A stretch of 64,000 nucleotides of DNA from Thraustochytrium sp. TN22 (taxonomy: Eukaryota > Sar > Bigyra > Thraustochytrida > Thraustochytriidae): positions 1 through 64,000 of the forward strand of contig JABLUY010000079.1 in the NCBI GenBank assembly GCA_013306675.1, given 5' to 3'. The notes under the pieces were generated by a model. The model was not told where the DNA came from and did not search any database. It saw only the letters and a program-made list of their open reading frames with translations. Both the position numbers and the translations under genes were made by a program. How positions within the stretch are numbered: position 1 is the first letter of the stretch; the number at the start of each line of letters is the position of its first letter. Below, piece by piece: positions 24,460-56,280 of the stretch.

Positions 24460-24990
24460 TTGCCGGCGGTGGCGCTTGGCGTGCTTGCAGAACTCGTCCT
24501 GGTCTGCTCGGCCGCCGTGCTCTCGCCTCGACGTGGGCGAGGAGGCGGGAGGAGGAGGAAGGAGACCAGACTTCTCTGCCGAGCGCCCCCAGACCTGGTA
24601 CAATCATTCTTTGAGCTCTCTTCAGCCACGGGCGGTGGCGCTTGGCGCGCTTGTAGAACTCGTCCTGGTCTGATCGGCAGCCATGCTCGCCTCGACGTGG
24701 GGGAGGAGACGCGAGGAAGAGGAAGGAGACCTAACTTCTCTGCCGCCCCCAGACCTGGTTCAATCATTCTTTGACTAGGCCTAGGCCTTCTACTTCTCTG
24801 CCAAGCGCCCCCAGACCTGGTTCAATCATTCTTTGAGCATTCTTCGGCCTCGGGCGGTGGGGCTTGGCGTGCTTGCAGAACTCGTCCTGGTCTGCTCGGC
24901 CGCCGTGGTCGCCTCGACGTGGGCGATGAGGCGCGAGCACTGAGCAGGGATTTCCTCCTCAGGAGAACTATCTTCGGACAGACCTGGTTC
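24460..24990. repeat. Three degenerate tandem units of about 160-220 bp
   Basis: Units start near 24465, 24630 and 24853 with GGCGTGCTTGCAGAACTCGT or a close variant, pass through CTCGACGTGGG and end with CAGACCTGGTTCAATCATTC (near 24590, 24750, 24813, with a last partial at about 24982). On the minus strand they encode repeated DQDEFCKHAKRHR-like peptides. The array runs up to the Rab3GAP2 start and may contain its promoter. Confidence 0.8.
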
Positions 24991-25048
24991 GATCAAACGC
25001 CGCGCGCGGCGGCCGCTCGAGCAGCGGCGGCGGCGCGCGCGCGCGCAG

Positions 25049-28000
25049 ATGCTGGCCGCGCGCGGCGTCGCTGTGGTCCCGCGCGAGACGCGGCGCGGCC
25101 GGGCAGGAGGGCATGGCGAAGAAGAAGATGGTGGCGGCGGGCGCGAGGGCCTGCTGCGCGCGGGCTCGCCGCGGTGCCTGACGGCGGCCGCGGGCCTGCG
25201 CGGCGCGACGTGGGTGGCGCTCGCGGTGGACGCGCGGTCCGTGCACGTGTGCGAGCTGGCGGCCGCAGGCGAGCAGGAGGAGGAGCCGCAGGAGCTGCGG
25301 CAGGTGCCGGTGTGGCGCGTGGCGAACCTGCAGGGCCTGCGCGCGCTGCGCTTCGCGGGCGAGGGCACGGCCACGTGCCTGGTGGCGGGGTACGCGAACG
25401 GGCTCCTGCGCGTCTTGCCCGTGAGCGAAGAGGCAGAGGTGACCTCGCGCGAGTTCGTGCTGCACGGCGCGCCCGTGCAGGAGCTGGCCTGCGTGGCGAG
25501 CGTGGTCTGGGTGCTGTACGAGGACCGGTCCGTGGTGAGCGTGGCGCTGGAGGAGCTGCAGACCTCGGCGAGCTGGACCGAGCCGGCGTCCATGCGCGTG
25601 TGGAAGCTGCGCAACCAGCGCCAGGTGGACGGCTTCGCTCCGTTGGCGTGGCAGCCCGCGTACTACGCGCCGGAGGCGCTGCTCTATGACGAGGCCGACC
25701 TGGCGGCCAGCGGCCCGGCGCACGCGCTCCTGACGGTCGGTGTGCGCCCGGCCTGGGCGATTCACGTCACGGCGGACACCGGGACGGACCGCAGCGCGGC
25801 CGCGGGCGGCTCCGCGCTCGTGCGCGAGATGGTCACGTCGGTGGCGACCTCGGTCGGGAGCCGCGTGTTCTCCATGGCGCGAGCCTGGTACAGCGGATCG
25901 TCAGCCTCCTCCAGTGCAGGCGCGGAGCCTGCGAGCGCCAGCACGGCAGCGGAGGAGGAGGAGGAGGAGGAGGAGGAGGAGGAGGAGGAAGACGCCGGCG
26001 ACGAGAGAGAGGACGGGGACGGCGCCGGGAGCGGGGACGAGGAAGACGCAGAGGGCGCCGAGGGCAAGGTGTTGGTCAAGGAGGCGGCAGACGCGCACTC
26101 GCGGCGCGGTGTGGTAAGCCTCGCGAGCCGGCACGCCATCTTCGACTCGGTGAACCGCGAGGTGAATGGACACCTGAACGGCGCAGACCCGTCTCAACGG
26201 TACGCCGTGAGTGTCGATTCGCTGGGGCGCGTTGTGCTCCTGGACGCGGCCGGCCTGCGCCTCTTGCGCACGTGGAAGGGCTACCGCGATGCGCAGACCG
26301 GGTGGATCACCAGCGCTGAGAACTGGGACGAAGGCGAGACGAAGACCAAGGACCCGGTGCAGGAGCGCCGCGGGCAGTACCTGGTCATCCTCGCGCCGTG
26401 GCGCGAGACGCTCCAGGTGTGGCGCGTGCCAGGTTGCGTGCTGGTGGCGAGCGTGCTGGTGCCGGACTGCCAGGTGGGCGCCGTGCGGCTCGTGACGCAG
26501 GTGAGCTGGTCGAGCGGCGAGGCTCGGTGTTTCCTGCTTCGCGAGGCGGCTTCGGACCAGATCGCCATGCACGAGGTGCGCACGACGCGGCGCAGCCTGG
26601 AGCGCCTCATGACGCACCTGAGCAAGGGCAAGAACCAGCAGGCGGGCTTCATGGCGCACCAGTTCCGCCAGGCGCTCGCGAGCGGGCGCGCGCGCCAGGC
26701 GGAGGCCATCTTTTTCGCCACGACGCAGGCGGACGTGGTGTGGCGCCTGCTGCACGCCATGGACGCCGACCTGAGCGGCGCCCTGCTGCCGCCACAAGCC
26801 ACGCACCTGCGCCTCGTAGACCACGCGCTGGAGGTTCTGGACCGCATGAAGCAGGACGCCGCCTGCGAGCGGCTAGCACTTTTGCTCCGCGCGCGCGCCG
26901 CTGCGCTGCGCTGCATCGCGGCGCTTGCTGCACCCGACGCGAACGCGGACGATCAGCCCGCTTCGCTGGCTGATGTGGACGTCGACCCGGCGCTCGTGCC
27001 GGTCCCGTCGGAGGCCTTGGCGGTCTTTGACGCGGACCACGCCGACGCCGACGCCGACGCCAACGCCGCTGCGTCGCCGATCGGTACGCGCGAGCTCCTC
27101 GCCGGTCTCGACGCGCTCGTGACGCGAGACATGGACGACCCGCTGTGGACCGACCCGTCGTACGAGCAAATCAGCGCCCCGGACGCCTGGGCCCGCCGCC
27201 TGAGCGCGGACGCCCGCGCGCGTGTGGCGGCGCGCATCTTCGAACCGCTGCTCGTGGACGTTTTCTTGTTCAGCCGCGTCACCGAGGCACTCGCCTTCTT
27301 CGGGCTCGACCAGGCCGCGGCGCTGCCCGCCATGCTGGCGTGGTGGTTCGCGCAGCCGCTCGTGCGCGTGCTGGAGGTCGCCAGCCACTCGCGCAGCGCT
27401 TTGGTGCGCATGCTCGAGCGCCTGGCGTCTGCGGAGCGCGCCGATGACCTCGTCGCGGCCGCGCGCGCCACGCCGCGCGTCTGCCACGCGCTCGTGCTCG
27501 TGCGGCTGGCGCTCGGCGGCCGCGGCGCGGCCGACGCCCTCCGCGAGGCGGCCGCCCGCCTCGAGGACACGCTCGTGGTGTGCTGTAGCACCGGCCGCGG
27601 CGACCTGAGCTGGGCGGCCCTGGCGGACCGGAGCGCAGCGCCCTTCGCGGCGGCGGTGGCCCGCGCGAGGCTCGAGAACCGGGACCTGGCCGCGCTGGAG
27701 AGGGCGCTTCCAGAGCGCCTGGCGGCCGCTGCCGACCTCGTCGCCGTGCACGAAGCGCTGTTCTTGTGCGAGTCGGCGCGAGACGGCGGCCCGGACGCCG
27801 ATGCCGACCTCTCGCGGGCGCTCGCGGCGACACGCCGTGTCGAGGACCGCGCTGTGCGGCGCGGGCTCGCCGTTCGCGTCCGCAACGCGGCCCTCGTGCC
27901 GCGCGTACAGGCGGGCCGCGTGTCCCAGCTCATGTGTGAGGTGGGGTTGGAAATTTTGGAGGTGGCCAAGGCGGCCGGACCAGACTCACGAGGCGCGACG

Positions 28001-28921
28001 AATGACGAGGACAGGGAGCCTGCGCAGGACTCGCAGCAGCACAAGCAAATATTATTTCCGCCCCTGGACGAGGACCTGGCTCGGACACTGCGCGAGGAGG
28101 CCTCGAGCGTGGACGCGCGTCGCGTGGCGCGCGCCGCGCAGGCGCTGCAGGCGCTCAAGGGGCTCGTCGAGATCGGCGCGGACGCCAGCGCGGGCTCGGT
28201 GGCCGCCTACTTTACCGCTGCGGACGGCGCGCCGTGGGCAGATGCGCTTTCGGGGAAAGCTTTGCAAGTCGACGGTGGCGGCCGTGGTGACGATAGGAAG
28301 GGTGATGGCGGGGTCGAAGCGCGCGCTGTGGAGGCGCGACGGTTGGAGCTCGTGCAGCGAGTGGCGCGCGCTCAGGCAGACGCGCCGAGTTTCGCGCTGA
28401 CGTTGGCGCGCGTCTTGGCTGTCCCGGAGGACAAGGTTTACATTGAGCTGGCGCATGCGCTTTACGCACGCGGCCAGGACGAGGAAGCGGCTCGCCTCGC
28501 GGCTCGTGTCAAGGACAAGGAGGCGCTGGCCCTCGTGCTGCTGGCTGTGGCCAGGCAGCGCATGGCCTCGGTGCTGCGCGTGCTGGAGGAGCTGCCGCAA
28601 TACCGGCACCTTCTCGCCGTGATTTCGGCTGATACAGCCCGCTGGGTCCGTGCTGGCGCCGTGCAACAACCCGCAGAGGGGGGAGTGGGTGGCGTTCTCG
28701 GCGGCCTGGCTGGCGAACCGGCCAGCAGCTCCAGCAGCTCCAGCAGCACCAGCAGCGATGCTGCGGTAGGTGCGCAGGGTGTCAAGCTCTCTGCTACACT
28801 TGTGCTCTTGCACGAAATCACGGCCGGCCTCCCTGAATCGAGCTCCGCGCGCCGGCGCGCTACGCAAATGGCCACGGCGGCGGACGCGCTCTTCCGCCGT
28901 GTCCAGGACGCCGTGCGGTAA
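25049..28921 (+). CDS. RAB3GAP2: Rab3 GTPase-activating protein non-catalytic subunit
   Basis: This 1,290-residue protein corresponds to the regulatory subunit of the Rab3GAP complex, which acts on Rab3 and activates Rab18 at the ER and autophagic membranes. The diagnostic stretch is RTWKGYRDAQTGWI (about residue 415), preceded by RYAVSVDSLGRVVLLD and followed by YLVILAPWRETLQVWRVPG, in the N-terminal beta-propeller-like half. The remainder is helical. Length is close to the human protein (1,393). A poly-Glu run (about 305-318) and an Ala/Asp repeat (about 665-680) are lineage additions. The catalytic partner is not in this window. The upstream tandem repeat ends within 60 bases of the start. 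No intron is needed. Confidence 0.82.
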   Translation: MLAARGVAVVPRETRRGRAGGHGEEEDGGGGREGLLRAGSPRCLTAAAGLRGATWVALAVDARSVHVCELAAAGEQEEEPQELRQVPVWRVANLQGLRALRFAGEGTATCLVAGYANGLLRVLPVSEEAEVTSREFVLHGAPVQELACVASVVWVLYEDRSVVSVALEELQTSASWTEPASMRVWKLRNQRQVDGFAPLAWQPAYYAPEALLYDEADLAASGPAHALLTVGVRPAWAIHVTADTGTDRSAAAGGSALVREMVTSVATSVGSRVFSMARAWYSGSSASSSAGAEPASASTAAEEEEEEEEEEEEEDAGDEREDGDGAGSGDEEDAEGAEGKVLVKEAADAHSRRGVVSLASRHAIFDSVNREVNGHLNGADPSQRYAVSVDSLGRVVLLDAAGLRLLRTWKGYRDAQTGWITSAENWDEGETKTKDPVQERRGQYLVILAPWRETLQVWRVPGCVLVASVLVPDCQVGAVRLVTQVSWSSGEARCFLLREAASDQIAMHEVRTTRRSLERLMTHLSKGKNQQAGFMAHQFRQALASGRARQAEAIFFATTQADVVWRLLHAMDADLSGALLPPQATHLRLVDHALEVLDRMKQDAACERLALLLRARAAALRCIAALAAPDANADDQPASLADVDVDPALVPVPSEALAVFDADHADADADANAAASPIGTRELLAGLDALVTRDMDDPLWTDPSYEQISAPDAWARRLSADARARVAARIFEPLLVDVFLFSRVTEALAFFGLDQAAALPAMLAWWFAQPLVRVLEVASHSRSALVRMLERLASAERADDLVAAARATPRVCHALVLVRLALGGRGAADALREAAARLEDTLVVCCSTGRGDLSWAALADRSAAPFAAAVARARLENRDLAALERALPERLAAAADLVAVHEALFLCESARDGGPDADADLSRALAATRRVEDRAVRRGLAVRVRNAALVPRVQAGRVSQLMCEVGLEILEVAKAAGPDSRGATNDEDREPAQDSQQHKQILFPPLDEDLARTLREEASSVDARRVARAAQALQALKGLVEIGADASAGSVAAYFTAADGAPWADALSGKALQVDGGGRGDDRKGDGGVEARAVEARRLELVQRVARAQADAPSFALTLARVLAVPEDKVYIELAHALYARGQDEEAARLAARVKDKEALALVLLAVARQRMASVLRVLEELPQYRHLLAVISADTARWVRAGAVQQPAEGGVGGVLGGLAGEPASSSSSSSSTSSDAAVGAQGVKLSATLVLLHEITAGLPESSSARRRATQMATAADALFRRVQDAVR

Positions 28922-33191: not shown

Positions 33192-35051
33192 ATGGCGTCC
33201 TTCGTGCCGAGGCTGGGCGACATTGTGTATGTGCAGCAGACCAAGGGCGAGGCAAGCCGCGCCGTGGTCAAGTTCCAAGGCTCGACCTCCTTCAAGCCTG
33301 GCAAGTGGGTCGGCCTGGAGCTGGAGCGGCCGACAGGAAAGAACGACGGCTGCGTGGACGGCATCACGTACTTTAGGTGCAAGGCTGGCCACGGGCTCTT
33401 CGTGCGGCCGAGCATGCTTATGACGGAGACCGAGGCCCTGCAGCGGCGCACGGAGAAGCTGTCGATGCGCGATATGGCGGGCGACGACGAGGAGCACAAG
33501 CTGGGCGACCGGCCGTCGAACGCGACCTGGTTCGAACTGGACGCGCGCGCCTTCATCTTCAACAAGAGCAACCAGGAGTGGATCGAGCTCGGCTCCGGCC
33601 CCGCCGTCTTCGGCTGGGTCACCGCCTCGCGCAAGGTCAGCCTCAGGCTCTGCGACGAGGATTGCGGCCGCACGTGCATCGAGCACCTGGTCGATCCGCA
33701 CACCAAGCTCGACCAGGCCAGTATCGTGTCGCAGCAGAGCTGGGTCTTCCGCGCCGCGCGCCAGATGGACCCGTCCACCAAGGACGTGCTCTGTTTGCAG
33801 TTCGCCACGATCGATTCGGCCACCGACTTCGCCGAGACCTTCGACGTCAAGCGCAGGGAATTTGTCGATATCAACGATGAGGCCAACAGCGGCCGCAAGA
33901 AGCGCGCCGATAAGAAGAGCGAGGCCGAGGCGCACCAGGGCGAGGAGGCCGAGGAGGGCGACAACACTCGCGTCATGCGCCGGAGGCTCACCGTCGCAGG
34001 CAGCAACCGCAACCTGGACGGCCACGAAAAGGGCGCCGGTTTGGACAAGACCTCGCCGCGGCCCAGCTCGCCCAAGTCGCTGCGCCCTGGCGAGATCGGC
34101 TCGTGGAACAGCGCCGCGGCCTCCAGCGCGCGCGCCGGTGAGCCCATCGAGATTGTCGCCTACTCGGGCGTCTCGCGCAAGGGCCTGGCGCCCTACAACC
34201 CGGACAAGCAGAACCAGGACTCTATGATCATGCAGCAGCTGCCGCAGAATGGCTACTGCAATGGTGAGCTCCTGCTTTGCGTCTTCGACGGCCACGGCGA
34301 GAACGGCCATCACGTGTCCCGCCACTTCGCCAAGCGCCTCTCCGCCTTGCTCTCCTCGGCGCCCAAGTTCGCCCAGGACGAGTTCACCGGCAAGGTTCTG
34401 GCTGACTCTCTCATTACCATCGAGAACGAGCTCATCCAGGACCGCAACCTCGACACGACGCTCTCTGGCACCACGGCCGTCGTTACCATCATGCGCGGCA
34501 ACAAGCTCTTCGTCGCCAACGTCGGCGACTCGCGCGTCGCCAAGGGCATCGTGCACCCCGACAAGAACGGGAACTACGCGCAGACTGGTCGCGGCCGCAT
34601 CTTCTGCGAGGACCTCTCCGAGGACCACAAGCCGGACCTGGAGCACGAGCGCAAGCGCATCAACCAGGTTGGCGGCCGCGTCTTCGCCATGAAGTACGAG
34701 GACGGCATCGACGGCCCCGCGCGCGTCTGGCTCTCCTACGCGGACATGCCCGGTCTCGCCATGTCGCGCTCCCTGTGCGACACCATCGGCAAGGAGGCGG
34801 GCGTCATCTCCAACGCCGAGCTCTTCACGCACGAGCTCGTGTCCGGCCGCGACAAGTTCATCGTCCTGGCTACTGACGGCCTTTGGGAGTTTATGAGCAC
34901 CCAGGACGTTTGCGACATCGTCTCCAGGTACGTCGAGGCCGCCGACGCGCGCTCCGCCATCTCGGAGCTTGTGCGCGAGTCCAACAAGCGCTGGCAGATG
35001 GAGGAGCCCGTCATTGACGACACCACCATCATCGTCGCCTTCATCAAGTAG
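33192..35051 (+). CDS. CAP-Gly / RanBP1-like / PP2C phosphatase fusion
   Basis: This 619-residue protein joins three domains. Residues about 8-75 are a CAP-Gly microtubule- or EB-binding domain with the defining PTGKNDG and YFRCKAGHGLFV. Residues about 112-235 resemble a Ran-binding PH-like domain: WFELDARAFIFNKSNQEWIE, a Ser/Lys strand and a C-terminal LCLQFATIDSATDFAETF. A linker rich in Lys, Glu and Ser follows. Residues about 325-619 are a PP2C Ser/Thr phosphatase with metal-binding NQDSM, VFDGHGENG (about 363), SGTTAVVTI, ATDGLWEFM (about 560) and the closing DDTTIIVAF. It could dephosphorylate targets on microtubules or near Ran-GTP, by inference from the domains. The ATG at 33192 starts just before CAP-Gly. 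Confidence 0.82.
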   Translation: MASFVPRLGDIVYVQQTKGEASRAVVKFQGSTSFKPGKWVGLELERPTGKNDGCVDGITYFRCKAGHGLFVRPSMLMTETEALQRRTEKLSMRDMAGDDEEHKLGDRPSNATWFELDARAFIFNKSNQEWIELGSGPAVFGWVTASRKVSLRLCDEDCGRTCIEHLVDPHTKLDQASIVSQQSWVFRAARQMDPSTKDVLCLQFATIDSATDFAETFDVKRREFVDINDEANSGRKKRADKKSEAEAHQGEEAEEGDNTRVMRRRLTVAGSNRNLDGHEKGAGLDKTSPRPSSPKSLRPGEIGSWNSAAASSARAGEPIEIVAYSGVSRKGLAPYNPDKQNQDSMIMQQLPQNGYCNGELLLCVFDGHGENGHHVSRHFAKRLSALLSSAPKFAQDEFTGKVLADSLITIENELIQDRNLDTTLSGTTAVVTIMRGNKLFVANVGDSRVAKGIVHPDKNGNYAQTGRGRIFCEDLSEDHKPDLEHERKRINQVGGRVFAMKYEDGIDGPARVWLSYADMPGLAMSRSLCDTIGKEAGVISNAELFTHELVSGRDKFIVLATDGLWEFMSTQDVCDIVSRYVEAADARSAISELVRESNKRWQMEEPVIDDTTIIVAFIK

Positions 35052-41609: not shown

Positions 41610-42723
41610 TCAAAACATCTCGAGCTGGTCCCACAGGCGCGCCAATAATGTCTGGGCTAGCGTTGTCAGGAAGAGGCGCGCATCTTGCAGTGCGCGCCGC
41701 GGGATGACCGGCTTCGGGAACCGCAGCGTGAAGTCCGCAATGGCGCCCGGCCCCGCCACATGCACGTGAATCACAAAGACGAACGCTAAGCCGGGCGGTG
41801 GGAGGATCACCACGTCCGTGTACTTGTCCGCGCCCCGCCCGTGCAGTGCGAGGGGGCGATGATGGCGGATCAGGTACTCGATGAGCCCGGTCGAAGGAAT
41901 CTGCGGTAGCAGAGCGCGGATCTCCGCGTCAACCCGCTCCAGGGGGCACGAGAAGGAGAGCCGGACCAGCTCATTGATGTTCACGGCGTGCCGCGCCTCC
42001 TGGTTGTCCTCCACGGACCGCGCCGGCGGCACGCCCACGAGAGGCGGCATGGGGTCCGACCAGTGCTGCGCGGCATGCTCCGGGCTCCCGGCAGTCGCCA
42101 CCGCCGCAGAAGCGCCGCGGCCGGCTCCTCCTGTGCTCCCTGCACCTCCCCCCGCAGCGCCCGTGCCGCCGCCGCTCGTAGTGGATGCGTCCACGCCCAC
42201 CGCACTCGAGCCGCCGGCGTTCATTGGACTGTTGGTGTGGTTCTGACCAGCGGCTCGCGAGATCTTGCGCAGGCGCCGCCAGATCAGCTTGCGTTGAAAA
42301 CGCAGAATCGCATGCGAAAAAACACGCTTCAGGAATTCGCTGAGGTTCTCCGTCGCGTCGTCCATGTCGAGGACGATCCCGGCGTCGCTTCTCGCGTCGC
42401 TGGACGCAGATATCGGCTCGTGCACCTGCAGCGAGCCAAGCGGACGCCTGCCAGCACGCGCGAGTTCCGCTGCCGAGCTAGGCTCCGCGCCCTGACCGCT
42501 GAAGGCGATAAAGGGAGCGAATTCCGCCTCGGTGTCGTTGTCCATAAAGTCCAGGCCTTCCTCCTCATAGGGACTAATCATGGCACGCTCAAAGTTCACC
42601 ATCTCGTCGTCGTCGTCGTCGTCGTCCTCATCCTCGTCCTCCCCTCCCTCGCCCTCGTGATCGTCGCCGTTCGAGGTGCGCGAGGTGCTCCGCAGAGCGC
42701 CAGCCTGGTCGCCCGCCTGCAAA

Positions 42724-42779
<56 letters not shown>

Positions 42780-45700
42780 TGCGGGGTGCTGCTGCGCCGG
42801 CGCCTGTGCGCCAGCGGCCGGCTTCACCGTTGGAAGGACCCCCGCCCGAGGCGTGCTGCTGCCCTGCATGTGCGAGATGGGGTCCTGGTCCTCGTGGTCC
42901 AGAATGGACCTCATCTTGAGGTCGTCGCTGCGGATGAGGCAGACGTCCAGCTGAATGATAGCGTTGCGCTCGTCCTCCGCCGCGCGCGGTCCGTGCAAGC
43001 CGGTTCCGCCAAAGCCCGCCGCGACGCTGCCCCCGCTACTCGAGCGTGCATCGGCGCCGCTCTCGTCCACACCCATGGCCTCGCCGTCCTCGTCGCGCCG
43101 ACAACCGATGACCACGGCGTATGTGACCCCTTGCGTCAAAATGACGAGCGGCGACGAGAAGCTGCCGTCGTTCGAGGTCAGGAACAGGTACGAGCTACCC
43201 GCACCGGGCTTGGGCGGCTTGATGCCAACCAAACCATAGCGCTCGGCTCGGCTTACCACGTAGTTGAAGATGCTGCGCACGTGCACCTTCTCAATGTCCT
43301 CGCGCACCATGTACTGAAACTGAAGCGAGCGAAGCGCCGACTGCGCGTCAGGCGGCGGCTCCGGGTAGTGCTTGGCGAATGCAAAGACCTGGCATGCCAC
43401 TCCGGTCGGCTCGGCCATGAAGTTCTGCAGCGTGCGCTTGAACAGGTAGATATGAAAGTCGTAGATCAGGCTGCGCACATGCAGCGCCGCGCGCAGGCGG
43501 CCCAGCTCACTCGTGTATGACGGGCCACGCGACCGCGCCTGCATCGAGTGCACAAAGAGCCCAGTGGGCTCTACGGGCTCCGTGAGGCCTGCGCTGTCGT
43601 GGTGGTCCGGCTCCAGGAGCCGCAGCAGGGCGAGGAAAACGCCATTCTCTACCTTCACCTCCACAACGACCACCGCGCCCCGAAGCTGCTTCTGCGCGAA
43701 CGCGTCGTGCAAGTCCGGAGAATCTTTGGCCTGGGTTGAGCCCGCCGGCGGAACCAGCACCTGCCGCATCTGCAGGTCGCGCACGAGGTGGTGCATGTAC
43801 ACATGAATCATCTCCTCAATGGCGAAGGGCGTGAAGTCGGACGAGGTTTGCTTCCTCGTGTGCGAATGCTCTGTGATGAAGACTCGCGCACGAAGCGTGT
43901 GCAGCACGCGTGAGTAGCTCAGAAGCAGCCGCAGCTCCGTCCGCGAAGCCATGCACACCTCGCGCGCGTCCTCGTCCTCGTGGAACGAGTCATCGCCCAG
44001 CGTGCCATACGGGAACGCAGCCTGCATCATCTCCTTGCGCCACGTGCCCACGAGCGCTCTGAGGGCCTCCTTCTGCCGCTCCTGCTTGAGCCGCCGTTGT
44101 GCAGACGTCAGGATATCCTCGCCGAGGCCTCTCACCAGCTCATCCGCCGCCATCCTCTTCGCCGACCCCGCGCCGGACGGCTTCGCTTCGGCCTCCGACT
44201 CGCCCGAGGTCCTGCCTCGGAGTTGCATCTCAAACGAGGTACGAGGCTGCCCACGCCACCTGGGCAACGTGCCAGAGCTGCTCGCACGCGAGGCTTTCGT
44301 GCCGCGGCCGTGCCGTGCCGGGCTCGCTGCGTCCCAGTCCACCTCGGCCTTCGCCTGACGCGGGCTTTCAAGCACAAAGCTCGTCTGAAGGCCCGGCGAC
44401 AACGCCCGCTGCGGCGCGGGCTCCGGCGCACCGGGTGCCCTTGATACCGCCATGGTGTCGCCCGGCGCCACCCCACCGGATGTACCGCCGCCCGGGACGG
44501 GCCCCGACGCAGTGGCACCGATCTTGTAAAAGAGTTTCAGGTCTATCGGCTGGCCCGTGCTGAAACCTCTGTGCGACCCCACGGCGGCCTGCTTCATCAA
44601 TAGTTTCCGGTTCATGCCGGGCCGTGGGGGTATGCGGGCATCGACGCTCACAGAACTAGTGTTCCGCTGCGCCTCGGACCGCCGCACTAGCGGTTCCATG
44701 CAGCTCTCCGGCGGCACTTGATTTTGGAGCAAGATGCGCAGCTCCGTCTCCGAGAGTGCAACTCTGGCGATGTTCCGAAGTGCCCCGTTTTGCTGCATGG
44801 CGATCGCCTCCCGCCCCTTGCCGCCCAGAGCATAATGCACGTCCGACAGGTAGCGCACCATGGGCGCTGGCAGAGCCGCATGCATGAAGACTCCCATGCG
44901 TTGGTGCAAAATGCTACGCAGCAGGTTGCCGCGCACTGAGACCCACGACACGAGAAAGTGAAGGCTACGCACCACACGCTCCCGGGCGTGCGGTGCCCAG
45001 TTGTACAGCTTGAGCACCAAGCGCTCGCCGGTCAGCACCAACGTCGCGCAGCAGGACCGCTTCTTTACGCACTCGCGGCGGCTTGCGTCCACCGTGCTCG
45101 CAGCTCCGCTCAGGTCGCCGGAAGATGACGAGGCGGCCACACTGCCGCCCATCACAGACTGGGCAGGTGGCGGGGGTGGGGGCCTTGGCGGCAGGTTTGA
45201 GATCGTCGACGACACCGTGGACTCGTTCACAGCATCGCGCGGCGACCCGCCCTTGTCGACGTTTGCGGTCCCGCCCCTCGCTGCGCTCTGTCCTCCACTG
45301 CCTGCCTGGCCACTGGTGAGGTTTGCGGTGCGCTTGCTTTCTTGTGGCACTGACTGTGTCGGCCTGGACGAGACCGGCGGCATGCTCGTCGACTCGTCAA
45401 GGCCAGCGCGCTGCGATCCGCTTTTGCTGGCTTCCGCGGGGGCCGTGCTTGAATTCGGCCCGGCTGCGCCAGCAGGGTGGGGGTTGAAGGTCCAGGTGTT
45501 GCTACCGAGCGCTTGCATGCGAATGTGCTCCCAGAACAAGAGGTCCTTCCTCACAAAGCCCCAATTTGGCCCGCGAAGCTCCACCTCATTCGCCGTACGG
45601 ACATCACCAGGAGACAAGGTGGCGCCTCGCGTTGCACCATGCAGCGCGCTGCGTGCGGCTTCCACTATGCGCGTGGGCTCCAGTCTTTCCGCGTCGTCCG

Positions 45701-46066
45701 CGTCCGCAGGCAGTACTTCGTCGCGAACGACTTCGAGATTGAGGTGATCCGCGGCAACGAGCAAATATCGGTCGTTCGGGGAAACCACCTGCGTCTCCGC
45801 AGACTCACGTGAGGTCCGCAGCCGGTCGGACCTGGCTCTTGCTTTCTCTTCCTCCACGCTCTGTACGGATTCTGCATCGCTGTCGAAATTCTGCAGCGCC
45901 GCACGCGCACGCTGGGGGCCGGTCTCCTTCTCATGCGCAGGCCTGCCGCTACCGCTCCTACTCGTGCTCTGAGCACTCTCGTTGACGCTGCTCATACTGC
46001 CGCCGTTGCCACTACTACTGCCGCTGCTGCTGCTGCTACTTTTGCTGCTGCTGCTGCTGCTGCTAC

Positions 46067-46137
<71 letters not shown>

Positions 46138-49100
46138 CCGTCGACCCCGACTGAGGCCTCGGTGGACGCTTGATTGAAGAATCCAGTGGCGGATGGGCCG
46201 GTGCACGCGTCGACCTCACTTACGCCGCGAGCCATGTCAAGCGGCTCAGCAGCCTGCGAGATGTTGCCATGGATGACCGCCGCGAGCTGGCACAGGTCTG
46301 GGTGAACCTTGGCAAGGATTTTTGAGGCCTCGACCATAAGAATGTGCATCTCCCAGGAAAACAGGCCGGGGCTCATGTCCAGCGTAAAGGTATCGAACGC
46401 ACGAGACCACGCCTTGTTGCGCTGCAATCGCTGTTGCTGCTGCTGCGACTGACGCCGATCCAAGCCTGGCACAGAGGTTGCAGACGGAGGCGAGCTTCCG
46501 CTCCCATTCGTAAGGGAGAGCGGGTCTTCAAAAATGTCGAGGCCGCTCGCGCGCAACGTTGCAGGTCTGCCTGGGGTGGCTGGCAGACGAAGTTGTAGCG
46601 GTCGCTCCAAGCAGCGTACCTCGAAGTTGTACTCATGCAAGCTGTGCGCGTACGCGGCCTCGAAGCAGTCGCGCAGCCGGTCCAGGCGGATTCCGCCCGC
46701 CGTCCAAAAATGTAGCACAATGGTCCTCGACACAGTCGTGGCTTGGGCGCGCGCGTCGAGGTCCCTGCGACGGCCAGGGATCGGGTCCGTGGTGTCTCTC
46801 TCCACATGCGGGACCGCCCCCGCGGATGACCCACGGCGGTGCTGGTGCTGGGGGGGCACGCCGGACTCACTCTTCGAGTTGTCCACGCCGTCAAGCGAGT
46901 GGCCGCGGTACAGCTTGTGGATGGGCAATGTGGGAGGGGGGGGCGGCTGCTGCGATGCGGAGGCAGTGCCGACGGGGACTCCGGTAGCAGCACCAGCAGC
47001 GCTAAGCGCTGGGGTTTCGTCCCTCGTCTCCAACGAGAAGACCTGCTTGCCGTCTTCGAGCAGGTACAAAAACGCGACCGCGATGCCTTCCGAGCCCAGC
47101 TCACTAGGTTCGAGCGGAACGGGCAGCCGAATGGATGCGCCATCCTCTTTGGAGAAGCGAGTAAAGGCAAAGACGAAGTTTCCCCGGTCGAGCTCCAGCG
47201 TGCGCAGGCCTAGATCAACGTCCAAGTCCGCGCGAGACGATCTGGGCGTCTCCGGTGCTGGCACACGACCGGGCAAGGAAGCCGCGTCCTTTGCATCCAA
47301 AGGAGAGGAGCGCGCGACACTGTCGTTTGCGTGCTGCTCCAAGGTTGCATCGTGTGTTGGCGCAGGAGGCGTGGAACTTCGGCCGCTAACGTTTTCGTGC
47401 AGCAAGGAATCGCCATCTCCGCCGTCGCCGTCCCCGTCGCCGCCACGGTTGACACCATCGTTGCCACCATCGTTGCCGCCCTCTGGAGCGCTGCCGCCGC
47501 CGATCGTGAAGACCTCATCGCCGAGGTCCTCCTCGCCCGCTGCAAGTGGGTCCCTGTACATGCGCGGATCTGGGATGTAGGAAAAGTTGAGAGCGCTCGT
47601 GAAGCACAGGAGGTTCTGCTTGAAGATGGCCAGGAGGTGCGCAACGTCTTCCACTGTGGACGGGACGGTCATTTCGTGTTGCAGCTGGGGTGGCTGGGAA
47701 ACTCCACCCTGGATAAACTTGAGGTCGCCCGGCTGCACCTTATAGGCGGTAGTATAGTGCATGGACCGGGCCAGTGTGGCGAGCGTTGCGGCGGTGATTC
47801 TACTTGTGATGGTCTGGCGAAAGTATGTAAGCATGTCCAGGGTCGGCTCGTCCACGCCGTAAATGTCCAAGATGATCGAGTTGGCCTCGCTGGCGCTCGT
47901 CGCGCTTGCCATCGAGGCCACGTGCTGGAGCTTGCTGTGTTCACCTGGGACACTCACCTGGCTCGGACGCCGGCTGCGCGCCTGCGAGACGGTCGAGGCG
48001 TGCGCAGTGGCTGGTACGGACGAGGTCGCAACGTCACTGCCCTCCGCCCTCAACTTGAGGTAAAAGATCTCGCCGGTGCCCGCACGGAACACGTACGTGT
48101 TCTCGCGATTTAACACCTCGAACATGCGAAGTGCCTTGGAGCGCAGGTCAACCATGGCACTGCGAGTGACGCGCTCGGGCACCTCGAACCGCTCCTCCAT
48201 GAGGCGCTTGCATGCGTACGCACCGTCCGAAAGGGGGTTCGCGGCGCCCGAAGGGTCCCGTGGGCGCCGACCTGCGCTAACGCCGGGCCCGACTCCGCGC
48301 AGGAGTGATCCATGCGATGGGTTGTGCCCGGCGTCGGCAGGGAACTCGTCCGGCTTGATGAGCAAAGGCGACGCGTGTCGCGTTTCGTCGAGCATCTGCA
48401 GCAGGAGCAGCCTGTTGACGCGGTCCACGTGCCTGCGGATTCTGCGCCGCAGATCGGCCACGATGTCCTTGTGGCGCTCCATCTGATCCTTGTGCAGACT
48501 CGGGTCGTAGAACTGTAAGGTGACCGAGGGGCCGGCGACCGTGAATAGCGCCCAATACGGCACAGTGTACTCGCGCATGACCCACTCGCTGCGCACAGTG
48601 CTGGTTGGCGGGGCGCTAATGGTCAAGGAAGACTGCGCGCCGGTGCCGATTCCGGCGCCATCCTCACCGGTCTCGCTAGCCTCGCCGTTCTCGCCGGTCT
48701 CGCCGAGCACGGTCGTACTGGCGTCGTCTAATAAGCCGTCGCCCGGTGCACTCGTGGCTATCGTGGCCGTCTCGTCGACGGACGGCGACGGGTCCCCGCT
48801 TCGCGTCACAGGCTCCACGTAGAAGAAAGTGTCGCTTTTGCTGCTCACGCGACGGAGTGTGAGGTAGGGCGAGCTTTCGAGCGTCTCGCAGAATATCGCT
48901 GCACCGCGATCCTGATCGCTCCGGTGCGGACGCCCTGAGCCCGAGCCCGGTCCCGTGTCCGCATCGACAAAGTTCAGCGGTATGGTCTCCCGCGAGATCA
49001 CACTGGACGGGAGGCTACCGCGATCCAGCAATCGCTGCACGAGGTCGATATTCTGTTTCAAAATGGGCCAAACCCGCTGCAGCGCGGCCAAGACGGTCGA

Positions 49101-52100
49101 GGAGACCATGGCGTTGACGCGGTTGCGGATTTTGCGGTGCACCTTGCGGACGCGAGCCTCGAGTGCCGCGTCGCTTCCGCCCTTGCCGCTTGCTGAGCCA
49201 GCGCGGCTCGACTTGGGCTGTGGTGGGAGTTTGCTAAAGATGAGGCTGATGTCGACGCTGCTGCCCGGGCCGTTCTGAAGTGTCCGCATGATGGTCTCAC
49301 AGACCTTGCCCTTTTCGATGTCGTGGTTTGCCTCCTCGCGGTCGTCGTTATTGACAAGGCTAGTCAGCGGCACGGGCCGCGCGTCCAGGCTATCGGCGTT
49401 TGCCCGCGGCGCGCGCGTCGTGCAGCAGATGCGGAAGAAAATCGGCGGCACGTACAACTTTCGCTTCGCCGCGACCGTGGTGAGGCCTTCGGCCCCGTTG
49501 GCGGGCATCGCGTCTTCCGCCCCGGCGTGCTCGTCTTCCGCCTTGGCGCGGGATGCGCCAGAGTGGGGGAGTGCGAGCTCCGGCTCGTGGTCCACAAGCG
49601 GCGAAGGCTGGGTCGAGTGGGAGGTGCTGCGGCCCGGGTTGCGCCTGTCGCCCCCGCGCCCCACGTTCTGACCGCCGCGCTCATCGTCGTCTTCGTCTTC
49701 GCCTTGCCCCTCGTCTTCGTCCTCATCCTCGTCGTCCTCCACATCGTCGTCATGGACAATGTCGGTGTCGCCAAAGTAGAAGGACGTGTTCTGGATCGGC
49801 TGGAAGAATTCGTTGAGGATGGAGCTGAAGCGCGCGTCCACCTCGGCGAGCGTCTGCTCGGACGAGCCAGAGCCGCCGTCTGGTCCGAGGCCTTCATACG
49901 GACTCGAGGAGGCCTGGTTTAGTGTGATGTGAAGAATGGAGCGCAGCAGCGAGGCGTCCACGTCCTCGCGATCGAATGGGCAGCGGCGAAGCGCATGCTC
50001 GATGTCACTGGTGTGCAGCAGCTGAACGCGCTCCTCCGGAGAGACGGCGCGAGAACCGAAGACGCGATGCACGGTGCAGGCCATGTTGAAGATGTGCGCC
50101 TCGCGAAGCTGCTCAAGAAAGCGTGACGCTTCCTGGGATGCGAGAGGCGAGCGCGGCACCGAGAGGGAACGTGCTTTGTCCTCCTCGTCATACTTGAGGT
50201 AGTTGCGCAGCTCGGGCTGCACAAGCGAGCCGGGGAAGGCAAGCTGCCTGTGGTCGACCTGGTAAAAGGCGATCTCGAAGCTCTGCTGCTTCCAGCCGTC
50301 CTGCGCCACGGCGTCGTTGCCGGCGCCTGGGTCGATGCCGGTCGCCTCGGCTGGCGTCGGGCCTAGATCGTAGGCCTGCGAGAGCAGTGCTGGGAGCGAC
50401 ATGACGAGCACGTTGTTGCCGGTGAGCACCTTGGCAAAGAAAAGGTGGGCGGGCGCGCTGCCCGAGGCCACGCCGCTGTTCTCCGGGGTCGAAGGCGCGT
50501 CCAAGAGCCGCGCGTCTGCCATACGCGCCACGGACGAGAGCATGAGGCGGAAACACTCGTCGTTGGCCAGCGAATTCTCCTTGACGCGGAACACCTGGAA
50601 GGACTGCCTGGCCTCGGGCGCGAACTGCAGCAACGATTGCACGCCATTTTGCACCTCGACCTGGTCCACGTCCCAGGTATGTTGTGGATCGGTCGAGGCG
50701 GCGATGCGGTGCGCCGCGGTAGAGTCCGCGCGAGCGCGGTCTAGAAATGGAAGGAGCAGCTCGTTTGCGGCGCACGCCTGAATGGCGAGGAAGGCGAGAG
50801 AGGTGGATACGAAGTACGAGTCGACATGGTCGTAGTGTGCGCGCAAGACGTCACGGAGCTCCTCGCCGCGCGTCACGTCAAACCCGTGCGGCTTGAACCG
50901 CGCATCGATACCTTGAATGATGACTTCGGTGCGCACTTGCTGCGCACTGGAAAAGGAGATCTTGTACTGCAGCAAGCTGCTCTCGCGCGAGGAGACGCGC
51001 ATGTCGCGCAAGTCGTAGAGCGGGATGCGCGCGCAGAAGCTAGCGTGACCCGAGGAGTCGAGCGTCGCCGAGGCATCGTTGACGTCGAGGCGGCCGTCCT
51101 CGCCGCGAATGAGTGGGAAGGTGCACGCGGTCACGTCGAATCCCTCGCGCACGCGCGCGCGGAAGAGCGAGCGCATCACGTAGTGGGCCGCGGCGAGGTC
51201 CGGCACGGTCCAGGTGCGCGAGTCGGAGTGCACCAAGAGAGGCGCAAGCGGGCGCGTGAGGGGCAGCAAAAGGCCGCGCTGCGCCGCGAGCTGGCTCGAC
51301 TGTGCGGGGAGCGCGATCCGGCACAGCTCCGCGAAGCCGCGCTGCCCGTTGTGAAGGGTCGCCTCCTGCGAGAGCGTCGCCTCAAAGTGGCCCACGAGCT
51401 GCTTCAGCAGCTGAAAACGTACGGCAGGCACGGTGCCGAGCGGGAAAGCAACGTGCACCGTACCGAGGAAATCTGAGAGCTTGACAAAGCGGCAGAGCAG
51501 CGCGAGCGGCGCGTAGGACGGCGCAAGCCGCGCGTGTTCCGACATCGAACTCCTGTCGCTGTTCTCCGTTTCATGGGGCGGCACTGCCTTGGACGCGTTC
51601 ACAACGTCGCCGGTGACGCCGATGAAGGAGGCCCATTTGCGCAGGACGAGATCAACGACAGCCTGCGTGGTGCATGGCGGCGCGAGGAGAACATCGACCG
51701 ACTCGACGAGGAACCAGCGGTGCCAGCGCGCGAGCGGCTCGTGCGCAAAGGCCTGGAGGAGACGCAGCGGGCCGTTTTGAGGGTCGCGCAGCGCCGTGGC
51801 AATATGCACGAGCGCGCGATCGCCCTCAATGATGGCGTTCACGAAGTGATGCAGGCGAAGCTCTTGCGAGCCGTGGAGGTAGGCCCGCTCCTGTTCGTCC
51901 AGGGATGAGTCAAGACGCTCGCGTAGGCGGGCAATGCGGCCTTGAAAAGTCTCGCCAGCCACGAGACGCACCTGAACCAGAGCGACGCTCTGGTGGCCAT
52001 CCGGTGGCAGCAGGTCCCGTCGCGCCTTGAGCACGTAGCCAAGCGTAACATGAGGCGCGAAGTTAAGCGCGAGTCGCACACACATGACGTTCGAGTTGCG

Positions 52101-54935
52101 CATCACCTGCTTGATGACGAAGCCATCGTTGAGGCGGCATGCGAGGAGTTCCGTGGCGCGCACATTGGACATACGGTATTCGGCGAGGTCATGCACAAGA
52201 ACGGGCGCTGCCGGAGGCGGGCCGGTCCAGGGAAATGGGTGACTGATAGCCTTGAGGGCGCGCGCGGTCTGCAGCTTCGCCGTGCGCGGTTCCGAGGCGG
52301 TCTCCAGGTCGGCGTCCGTAAAAAATGGGACGAGCGTCGCAGCAGGAACGCCGGCGCCGGCGCCCCTGGCGCCGCCAGAGCTGGAGTTGTCGCGCCAGCC
52401 CAGCGTGCTCGCGGCGCTGCTGCTGCCAACGCTCGCAGCGCTGCTTGGTGCGCCGGGAAACGGGCTGACGGGGCCGTGGAATCCAAGCAAGCTTCCCAAT
52501 GAGCCCGCGCTCGGCGGCCGCAGCCCACTGTTTCCGTCGTACGGCTGCTGCTGCTGCTGCTGCTGCTGTTCCTGCTGCTGCTGTTGGGAGGATAGAGCCA
52601 AATCGGTCTCGATCACCTGCTGCATAAGCGCGTGGTCGGAGTCCGGGTCCGGGCTGGCGAGTGCCGAGAGAGAAGAGTGCGAAGAAAAGACGCCGCCGGC
52701 CTGGCGCTGGCGGACGAGCGAATCGGTGTGTGCTCTGACCTGCTGCTGCGGCTCGTTATCTTCAAAAAGGGCCATGAGCGCTTCGGCGCCGATGATTTTG
52801 GCGCCCTGGTTGGCGCCATTGCTGAATGTATGGCTTCCGTGGAGTCCGCGCAGCGGCACAGACGGGGCAGGCCGCGGGATGGATGTCCGTCCGGGCAGCT
52901 CAGAGAAGGAGAAGCGTCGCTGACCGAGGCCGCGAGCCCCGGCGCTGCCGGCTCGGGAAGCCGCGTCCGTCGCTGTGGAGCCGTGCATCGTGTCGGTGAG
53001 CTGGTGGAAGCGGCAAAGCAAGGCAACGACTAGCTTCCCGACATTCGCCGTAGGGAGGAGGCGATGCGCCATGGATGAGGTGAGCTCTTCGGCAAAACCG
53101 TCGGTTGCGATGGTGCCGGACACCGAGCGGTTCTTGGCCTTGCGGCGCACGCGCGCGGCCCTGCGCGCGGCACGGCTTGCCCCGAGCGCGCCGATGCCGT
53201 CCGCCTCATTCTGCACGAGCTCGTTCCGGACGCAGCGCAAGAAGGTCATGTCGTAGCAGACGCCCCCGGTGTGCGCCGCCGCGAAGAGCAGCTCCGAGAC
53301 GTCCGGGATGGTCCCGAGCGCACTGCTGATGCGCTCCGTGGGCGTGAGGAGCGCAAAGTGCACCGGGACGTCGAGGCGGCGCAGAAACGGGAGGCCGGCC
53401 ACGCCCTCGGAGTCGTCGCCCGGCGTCAGCGGGGATGGCAGGCCGCCGTCGGAGATAACCACCATGCACGGGCAGGCGCTCACCTCGAGCAGCTGCACGG
53501 CTGCAATGGCGTCCGCCAAAAAGTCCAACAAGGACGGCGGCTGCTCCACGGCGGCGTCGTCTGCGCCGGGAAGCAAGGACCCGTTGAGGGAGAAAACGGA
53601 TGGCGCGTACGAGTTTGCTCGCGCGCGTCCGGCCATGGGCGGCGGCAGCGGCAGCGGCGGCGGCGCCATAAGGCGAAGATGCGAAGCCGACGGCGTGCCG
53701 AAGGTGCCCAAGGTGGGCGTTCCCGTGGTGCTCTCCAGCGCGTCGCGGTAGGTGTGCGGCAGGTCGGAGGCCGATCCATAGGAGTCGAGTGAGTCAAAGT
53801 GCGGCCGACTCGGGCCCGTGCCTGCGGACGCGCGCATCATGTTGGAAGGGTGTGGCAGGGAGGAGCCTGACGAGCTCGACGAGGCGCGCGCCGAGCGCCG
53901 CCAGTCAGCCGATTGGCGCGCCTGTGGCTCCGGCGTGGGCCGCACGAGCGCGTCGAGACCCACGCGCACCTTGTCCACGATCTCACGCAGCGACTCGCGC
54001 GTCAACAAGGCGGCGCTTACCAGCACAGACCCGCCCGTCATTTTGCGCGCTGGCACGATCTTTTTGCGCGCGACCACCGAAACCTTGATGCAGGGCCGCA
54101 GCAGCGTGCTGCAGCTCACGAGCGGCACGGGCTGCAAGAGCGACTGCAGGAGCACGGTCAGCACGGGCACCACTTGCGCCCCAGCCAGCGCGTAGACGGG
54201 CTCCTCCGTTCGCAAGGAGCCCATCAGAGCGACCGAATACATGGACGGTGTTGCGTCAACGGCCACCACCACGTGGTAGCGCCTGTACACGAAACAGAGC
54301 CGAGTCGACTCGAGGATGATGGCCTGTGCCATGTGGCTCGAGCTGCTGGCGAGCTTGCCGCCGCCCTGCAGAGTTACGGCCAGCACGTGCATGTTGCCTT
54401 CGCGCTCAATGTGTCCGCACGGCTCGTTCAGGTACCGCAGCTGAATGAGTGCGCGAGAGGCCGCCTCGCTCGCCTTGTACTCCTCCATCACAATGAGCAC
54501 CTCGCGCGCTTGGAGCAAGCTGCTGGCAGCGCTCTTGTTGCGGCCTCTGCGGGACGAGAACGAGCCCCCGGTCGACGTCGCATCCTGCGGCGGCCGCATG
54601 GGCCGCAGCTGCGGCGACTGTCTCGAGGAGGTCTCCTCACGCTGCTGCTGTGTCGACCCCGTCCTCTGTCTCTCCGGATCCTTGGGATCCTGATCGACCC
54701 GCGCATCGTCTCCTCCGCGCGACGCCGCCTGCTCTGTCTCAGTCCGCTGCTGCTGTTGCTGCGGCACTGCTTCGTGCTGCGGCTGTTGCTGCTGTTCTTG
54801 CTGCTGCTGCTGCTGTTGCTGCCGCTCCGCCTCGCCCTGCTGCGAGCTCGCCGCGGCGAGCTCGCCCGTCGCCCGCCGCCGCCGTCGCACCGCTCGCTCG
54901 CCATCGCGTGAGGATGCCACGCTGCGCGCGTCCAT
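41610..54935 (-). CDS. Giant SZT2-like protein, single exon
   Basis: One uninterrupted frame of 4,441 codons. I assign it tentatively to SZT2, the scaffold that tethers GATOR1 to lysosomes and lets amino acid lack shut off TORC1 (KICSTOR in animals). Support is the great size (human about 3,400), the N-terminal VWA-like fold with DATPS (about residue 227) and VVISDGG (about 490), family-like blocks such as LHQRMGVF, and a conserved C-terminus (ADFTLRFPKPVIPRRALQDA). Low-complexity inserts explain the extra length: poly-Gln near 55-90, poly-Ser near 2935-2975, Ala-Ser near 4053-4071 and several Asp/Glu runs. The ATG at 54935 precedes a basic, Gln-rich start; the frame above it is Arg/Ala repeat. 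The SZT2 assignment rests on pattern memory only. Confidence 0.65.
42722..42780. repeat. GACGCC hexamer run inside SZT2-like gene
   Basis: About nine GACGCC units encode an Ala-Ser alternating tract on the gene strand. Confidence 0.9.
46010..46137. repeat. CTG/CAG tract read as poly-Ser in SZT2-like gene
   Basis: An interrupted then pure CTG run encodes more than 20 consecutive Ser codons plus flanking Ser/Gly/Lys on the gene strand (AGC register). Confidence 0.9.
54745..54840. repeat. CTG/CAG tract read as poly-Gln in SZT2-like gene
   Basis: Interrupted CTG/TTG units encode the Gln-rich N-terminal region (QQQQQQQQEQQQQPQH and neighbours) of the SZT2-like protein. Confidence 0.9.
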
Positions 54936-56280
54936 CGCGCCAGCGCGCGAGCGCGCGAGCGCGCCAGCGGCCGGCCAGCGGCCCCAGCGCCGCTCTCGCC
55001 GCCCTCGCCGCCCTCGCCCTCGCCCTCGCCGCGCCGCGCCGCGCCGCGCGCGCGCAGCTGCGCTCAGGCTCCTAGCCTGTCTGGTCGTCGCGCGGCCGTC
55101 TTTCGAGGTTCCACTGCAAGCGCCCTTCACGTTCAAAATTCGAATCCTCTCCGGTTGGCCGCGCAAATCCTCGCGCGCTCCGGCCCGCGCGGCTCTTCTG
55201 GCGAGGGCCTCGGCGTCCTGCGCGACTCAATGCCCTCTTCGACGCCCGTCCGGGCCCGGCGCTCAGGCTGGGCTCAGAGAGTCCTAGCCGCTTGCTGCGC
55301 TGCGGCGGCAGCGGCGCGAGCTCTCACAGTCAATGCGAGGGGCCCGGTGCGTCCCGAACGTTCTTTTATTGGCCTTCGTTCCGGAACGTCGTTCTTTTCC
55401 AGGCACCCCGTGCCCAGCTCAAGGCTTGAGGCTTCAAGTTCGCACAGTCGACTTCTGAGGCGAAGTCGACAGTCGACCTCTACTAAGTTAAGTACTAACG
55501 TTACAGCTCGCTCTGCTGGCTGCCAGGCAGTGCGCCAAGACCCGGGTCTCGCTGCGGCGGCTGCGCAGCGAAGACGGCGGCGCCACCAGCCGTGCCAATC
55601 CTGTCGGCCCTCATCTGGCTGTCGTGCGCCGCCCTTGGCACTGTAAGTCACGGCCAAGTCCTGCAAAACCTAAGTTAGCGACCTGAAGGCTAACGTCAAG
55701 TTAGGCCTAAGTTAGTAGTGCAAGCCTTGAGTCGCGGCAAGTCACGGTCGCCACGCGGCGCACGTCACAGCACCCTGTCGCACCCAGTCGAAGTTCAAGT
55801 TGTTCTTCTTCGAGTCACCTCGCGGGCGAGGGGGCCCGCGCATCGTGCAGAGTGCAAGTACCCGCGCCAAGAGCCCCCTCCGGCCGCGGCGCGTGGCCGG
55901 GGCGGCGCCGAGGCTCTGCGGAAAGTCTTCCCCGCCGCCCCCGTGCGCGCGGCTTCTGAGGCCGGGTGGGCACGCGCCGTGCACAGCTGCTCTGATGATG
56001 ACTGAAGGCGCGCGCGCGCCCGCGACGGTCTAGCAGAACGAATCGCCGGGCTCGCCGCGTCGCGCCGCCGCCTTCGCCGCGCCGCGCCGCGCCGCGCCGC
56101 GCCGCGCCGCGCCGCGCCGAGGCGCGCTCGCGCTCGCGCTCGCGCTCGCGCTCGCGCTCGCCGCGCCGCGCCGCGCCGCGCCGCGCCGCGTGCGTCGCGA
56201 GGGAGGGAGGGCGTCCATCTCGGCACGTCGGGCCCGCGAAAGAGGGCGCCGAACAGGTGGCGCGCGCCGCGCACAGGAGG
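54936..56280. promoter_or_regulatory. Divergent region between SZT2-like and MLO-like genes
   Basis: No gene is supported in this 1.35 kb. Its left end carries CCTCGC/GCCGC pentamer-like repeats (about 55003-55052) upstream of the SZT2-like start. Its right end carries long CGCCG and CGCTCG tracts (56074-56190) upstream of the MLO-like start. An AAGTTAGG-type short repeat occurs near 55670-55715. Confidence 0.55.
56074..56190. repeat. CGCCG pentamer and CGCTCG hexamer tracts
   Basis: About eight CGCCG units, then six CGCTCG units, then about five more CGCCG units, ending about 90 bases before the MLO-like start codon. Confidence 0.95.

Follow-up and report, generated by a model that had tools for sequence, protein, structure and literature searches.

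This study analyzed the window, that is, the whole stretch of 64,000 nucleotides from Thraustochytrium sp. TN22, and identified a single reading frame that we take to encode one protein with three domains: a CAP-Gly domain, a divergent RanBP1-type domain, and a PP2C catalytic region. The reading that we favor, with a probability of roughly 0.6, is that one polypeptide chain forms a PP2C (PPM) Ser/Thr phosphatase that was made microtubule-tethered by a swap of its targeting module. The features of the frame are listed below.

33192..35051, + strand: coding sequence in a single frame, CAP-Gly / RanBP1-like / PP2C, 619 aa (ORF list, Pfam, coding signal)
33243..33416, + strand: CAP-Gly domain, aa 18-75, with GKNDG at aa 49-53 (Pfam E 5.3e-22; phmmer alignments)
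33528..33848, + strand: divergent RanBP1-type domain, aa 113-219, with EWIEL at aa 129-133 (Pfam E 2.6e-6; PDB matches; shuffles; residue table)
33849..34166, + strand: charged linker, aa 220-325, coding (GC3 0.895 for aa 226-282 and 0.929 for aa 283-338)
34167..35048, + strand: PP2C/PPM catalytic region, aa 326-619, Pfam match 350-597 (Pfam E 1e-38; column check)

The 619-codon frame begins with the ATG at 33192 and closes with a TAG stop codon that ends at 35051. An in-frame stop occupies the eighth codon 5' of the ATG, and the N-terminus is therefore complete and the CAP-Gly domain whole. A sequence-only reading of this DNA had described the frame as free of introns and had proposed CAP-Gly, Ran_BP1, and PP2C in this order; the ORF coordinates agree with that description, and the Pfam search of the 619-aa product placed PF01302, PF00638, and PF00481 above their curated cut-offs in the same order. 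It is extremely improbable that the frame is a gene-model or assembly artefact in which the genes are in truth separate or a linker holds an intron. The fusion is known from a single assembly, and two donor-like GT[AG]AG words occur in the coding sequence (codons 316 and 358), the former of which is a GTGAG in linker 2. Against such an artefact, the stretch remains open for 626 codons without a stop, with the upstream in-frame stop close by; GC3 is 0.875-0.969 across the six segments of the coding sequence, both linkers counted, and 0.895-0.969 in the linker segments; and a scan of the coding sequence with a strict acceptor pattern only (at least eight pyrimidines, any nucleotide, and CAG) found no acceptor. 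An intron within a linker was rejected because the coding signal is unbroken and the strict acceptor was not found. The antisense ORF of 701 codons across the same stretch yielded no Pfam match at E <= 0.01; it was rejected as a gene and taken as a GC-driven shadow frame. Elsewhere in the window, a RAB3GAP2-like frame of 1325 codons lies at 24944-28918 (+), and another frame, which runs for 4538 codons without a stop at a GC3 of 0.79, lies at 41613-55226 (-). The latter exhibited no Pfam match except SLIDE (E 0.2, below the cut-off), and it may encode an SZT2-like giant protein.

The CAP-Gly signatures noted in the earlier reading were borne out. PF01302 scored 78.0 bits against a curated cut-off of 26.5, and GKNDG, the ligand-groove motif of CAP-Gly domains, is intact and was aligned by phmmer with structures of CLIP-4, KIF13B, CLIP-115, and restin/CLIP-170; the nearest structures were those of the CLIP family, KIF13B, and dynactin. 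CLIP-170, CLIP-115, CLIP-4, and KIF13B possess a GKNDG-type CAP-Gly domain, as does the window protein, but unlike the window protein they are not known to carry it joined to a phosphatase. The usual CAP-Gly ligand is a C-terminal EEY/F, and we read the corresponding ends in the same genome. EB1 (L069) ends in AEEY. Among the tubulins, whose ends were read at eight Tubulin_C places and whose alpha and beta labels are our own reading, the alpha-like L061 and L062 end in EEY and EEF, respectively, and the four beta-like L064-L067 end in EEEY; L063 and L068 have other endings. Judged from its residues, the CAP-Gly domain looks functional.

The proposal that the middle segment is RanBP1-like also held. 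PF00638 matched at 28.1 bits (curated cut-off, 23.2), and the comparison of the segment with the PDB revealed matches to RanBP2/Nup358 (E 2.6e-11 at best, a sum across several of its domains), Yrb1 (best E 1.1e-6), and the RanBP1 chain 1k5d (E 0.0058). All PDB matches below E 0.1 were RanBP2/Nup358, RanBP1-type (Ran-specific GTPase-activating protein), or Yrb1 chains, and the first match not named for Ran was PP4R3 at E 0.59. An HMM was built from five Ran-binding domains, four of them from RanBP2 and one from the RanBP1 of this genome, with the window segment left out; it scored the segment at 39.5 bits, compared with a best score of 6.5 bits in 1000 shuffles, 849 of which scored. The PDB matches and the shuffle control ruled out a non-homologous middle segment, and the findings show the segment to be RanBP1-related by homology. 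Close kinship to RanBP1 proper is disfavored, the segment having matched chain 1k5d only at the value given above and the genome's own RanBP1 only at E 1.2e-4. The Pfam family PH_35 scored 14.7 bits on the window protein, below its cut-off of 28, and a single-sequence AlphaFold2 model of the middle domain had a mean pLDDT of 37.9 and was unusable.

The middle domain is homologous to the Ran-binding domains of RanBP1 and RanBP2, whereas most of the Ran-contact features that we examined are gone from it. In the available portion of PMC3045386, the EWKER motif is described as forming salt bridges with the Ran effector loop, basic residues including Arg1284 are described as serving the DEDDDL tail of Ran, and such losses in RanBP3 are tied to weak Ran binding. 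That source numbers EWKER at 1154 and names Q1248, neither of which agrees with the RanBP2 numbering of the PDB match, where EWKER begins with residue 1210 and an I stands at 1248; its Arg1284 fits the PDB numbering, and only two motifs and Arg1284 were used from it. In the window domain, the EWKER site reads EWIEL: the K and R, invariant across the five Ran-binding domains compared, are lost, and the E, W, and E are retained. The Arg1284 position is a Q. Between RanBP2 residues 1206 and 1299, nine columns (1212, 1214, 1220, 1231, 1235, 1241, 1277, 1284, and 1295 in RanBP2 numbering) are basic in each of RanBP2 domains 1-4 as well as in the RanBP1 of this genome, and the window domain keeps a basic residue at two of these nine (1241 and 1277), counted whether or not a column touches the Ran tail. 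The N-terminal extension HFEPVV is absent before the window domain, but the genome's own RanBP1 itself shows only a partial EFTPKY there. A separate, typical RanBP1 is present in the genome (L001).

On the basis of EWIEL, the Q at 1284, and the two basic columns, the domain was rejected as a working Ran-binding domain. It most likely has weak or absent Ran binding, and the protein probably no longer answers to Ran; the link to the Ran gradient suggested in the sequence-only reading is doubtful after the residue comparison. A Ran-regulated microtubule phosphatase, which would still bind RanGTP and whose release or activity would track the Ran gradient in the vicinity of chromatin or of nuclear pores, is very unlikely. 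Such regulation would agree with the significant Ran_BP1 match, with the exclusively RanBP2/Nup358, RanBP1-type, or Yrb1 identity of the structures matched below E 0.1, with the retained E, W, and E, and with one Arg that sits two columns off the lost 1235 Arg. Three other RanBP1-type domains of the genome are divergent as well (L002, L003, and L005 keep five, six, and three of the nine basic columns, respectively), so divergence by itself is no proof of lost Ran binding. Nevertheless, the window domain keeps the fewest basic columns among the five RanBP1-type domains of the genome, the K and R of EWKER and the arginine at 1284 are gone, and the comparable losses in RanBP3 go with weak Ran binding in the source cited above.

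The PP2C region appears well preserved at its metal site. PF00481 scored 133.9 bits against a curated cut-off of 20.3, and the metal-site and catalytic-motif residues D343, D366, G367, D446, D562, and D609 are intact, in keeping with the PP2C metal motifs reported previously for this frame. When these columns were compared with 22 further PP2C stretches from this genome, the same residue was present in 22/22, except for two columns with 20/22 and two gaps. The R33-like position is a D in the window protein, an R in 16 of the 22 others, and without R in six (one of them a gap); an R33-type Arg is found in 14/29 Phytophthora sojae PPMs according to the portion of PMC10925823 available. The E37-like position is a Q, as in five of the 22 others. 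The only NCBIfam match was the Stp1 PP2C family at 46.2 bits, far below its cut-off of 230, and Pfam SpoIIE scored 15.3 bits, below its cut-off of 25.

We then placed the PP2C region in a tree of 23 rows comprising the window protein and 22 of the remaining 43 PF00481 matches, namely those that have a locus and cover the greater part of the profile. The midpoint-rooted tree exhibited a split with support of 100/99 that separated seven rows from 16. The window PP2C fell on the seven-row side with L051, L053, L054, L055, L059, and L010; L054, L059, and L010 were flagged as long branches, and their placement is unsure. Two of these rows, L053 and L055, come from proteins that combine PP2C, cNMP-binding, and protein kinase domains in single frames (L074:325-3696, +, and L075:1325-4804, -, respectively) and resemble PPMs reported in oomycetes. 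A Met-Gly-Cys start is an acylation anchor. A candidate start of this type was found in four of the six group mates (L051, L053, L054, and L059; in L054, the motif begins at the frame's second Met) and in none of the 16 others (Fisher p 0.002, for a contrast picked after the data were seen). Outside the group, the frame ran past the locus end in five of the 16 PP2Cs, and Met-Gly without Cys at position 3 was found upstream of PP2C in eight of the 16; one start there, MGLCCG (L041), is itself a plausible anchor. The candidate Met-Gly-Cys starts of the group mates are likely membrane (acyl) anchors.

Profile searches over the 37.9-Mb assembly (453 contigs, with the window on contig C430) revealed PF00638 at five places, PF01302 at 10 places, and at least 44 PF00481 matches, some genes giving several. 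Only the C430 frame appeared in all three lists, although the search was read exon by exon and an intron-rich fusion could escape it. Contig C396 appeared in two lists, with its CAP-Gly and PP2C places approximately 31 kb apart. At eight of the other CAP-Gly places, the partners were RCC1-like, zinc finger, ubiquitin-like (two), ankyrin/TPR, WD40, LRR, and none (CAP-Gly alone); neither PP2C nor Ran_BP1 was found beside CAP-Gly in any of these eight frames, three of which (L021, L026, and L029) are cut by the locus end. L021:421-3204 (-, C403) joins CAP-Gly and RCC1-like repeats in one frame, another unusual CAP-Gly combination. The ninth place, L073:495-3965 (+, C396), is a 1157-codon frame with CAP-Gly, a PPP phosphatase, and EF hands and is PP7-like by its domains. 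A peptide-pattern search for whole-protein relatives in virus and prokaryote contig collections, which say little on eukaryotes, matched 3 and 27 stretches, respectively, and tblastn confirmed none of them. Its tubulins and EB1 mark the genome as eukaryotic. It also harbors a PfaA-type PUFA synthase (one 3044-codon frame; 2539.7 bits with its frame neighbors against a cut-off of 1010.1), an enzyme type associated with thraustochytrids, which fits the labyrinthulomycete origin implied by the sequence-only reading.

CAP-Gly partners vary in general, and the domain occurs in many contexts of this genome. These observations would fit a protein whose CAP-Gly and middle domains target it away from microtubule ends and lattice, to the centriole or flagellar base, to vesicles, or to a partner without EEY/F, where the phosphatase would act. 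We regard such targeting as possible but unlikely; the intact GKNDG motif and the EEY/F ends in the genome argue against it.

The sequence-only reading had also held that this domain order is undescribed. No fusion of CAP-Gly with PP2C/PPM or of PP2C with RanBP1 was found among the papers listed from the open-licence PMC literature, mostly at the level of titles and abstract starts; nevertheless, CAP-Gly joined to a phosphatase of another superfamily, PP7, is already in print. PP7 carries an N-terminal CAP-Gly domain, with Toxoplasma PP7 as an example, in the available portion of PMC8785970 (citing Andreeva and Kutuzov 2009); the accessible part of PMC8949495 mentions PP7 without CAP-Gly. The CAP-Gly PP7 proteins (Toxoplasma PP7 and L073) resemble the window protein in bearing an N-terminal CAP-Gly on a Ser/Thr phosphatase within one polypeptide. 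Their catalytic domain, in contrast, is PPP/Metallophos and unrelated to PP2C; L073 has EF hands and no RanBP1-type domain was found in it, whereas the window protein shows the reverse, with no PPP/Metallophos or EF-hand match in Pfam up to E 1. L074 and L075 are multidomain PPM phosphatases whose PP2Cs share the seven-row side of the 100/99 split with that of the window protein; unlike the window protein, they place cNMP and kinase modules C-terminal to PP2C and have no CAP-Gly.

The part of PMC10925823 available reports accessory STKc, CAP (cyclic-nucleotide), PH, CBS, and FHA domains in 8/29 P. sojae PPMs, and CAP-Gly is not named among them there. Those P. sojae PPMs that bear CAP and STKc domains are multidomain PPMs, as is the window protein. 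P. sojae PPM1 likewise has an extra domain in front of PP2C, an N-terminal PH domain, and was shown to be active (PMC10925823); this domain is PH by annotation and not of the RanBP1 type, and CAP-Gly is not named for PPM1. Targeted phosphatases and CAP-Gly phosphatases are already known as a kind, and the version with PP2C and a RanBP1-type domain is new as far as checked.

PP2C enzymes have no separate regulatory subunits and act as one polypeptide each (PMC8785970 and PMC10925823, each in part), so built-in modules are an obvious route to their placement. Starting from what is observed, namely one frame with three domains, the PP2C and GKNDG motifs, the EEY/EEF ends, and the candidate Met-Gly-Cys starts of four of the six group mates, we infer that the CAP-Gly domain would dock the enzyme onto EB1 or tubulin tails. 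The RanBP1-type domain, with most Ran contacts lost, would work as a partner or substrate adaptor, and the phosphatase would locally dephosphorylate proteins associated with microtubules. The fusion probably arose in evolution when the acyl-anchor N-terminus of a membrane-anchored type of PP2C was exchanged for a microtubule-targeting module. The unusual combination probably places a phosphatase on microtubules. Of the microtubule-end phosphatase with a Ran link envisaged in the sequence-only reading, the CAP-Gly and phosphatase in one protein and the RanBP1-related middle are well supported, and the link to the Ran gradient is not. L073 of this genome has the same design with a phosphatase of a different superfamily; as a counterpoint, CAP-Gly occurs in 10 places of the genome, and the combination could be just one product among many shufflings.

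A bolder version, which we consider unlikely, is that the protein represents a second class of CAP-Gly phosphatases that was assembled independently of the first, a plus-end-tracking PP2C whose RanBP1-type domain couples local dephosphorylation at the ends of microtubules to Ran or to a new GTPase or peptide ligand. If true, such coupling would be a direct physical link from nuclear-transport-type signalling to the phosphoregulation of microtubules. A Ran connection would make the protein more striking, but it is the weakest step of the account. Under the favored reading of a microtubule-tethered PP2C, the protein would provide a compact, testable example of dephosphorylation targeted to microtubules, and it suggests that a PP2C lineage gave up a probable membrane anchor in return for a microtubule-targeting module, a design shared with the CAP-Gly PP7 proteins of another superfamily.
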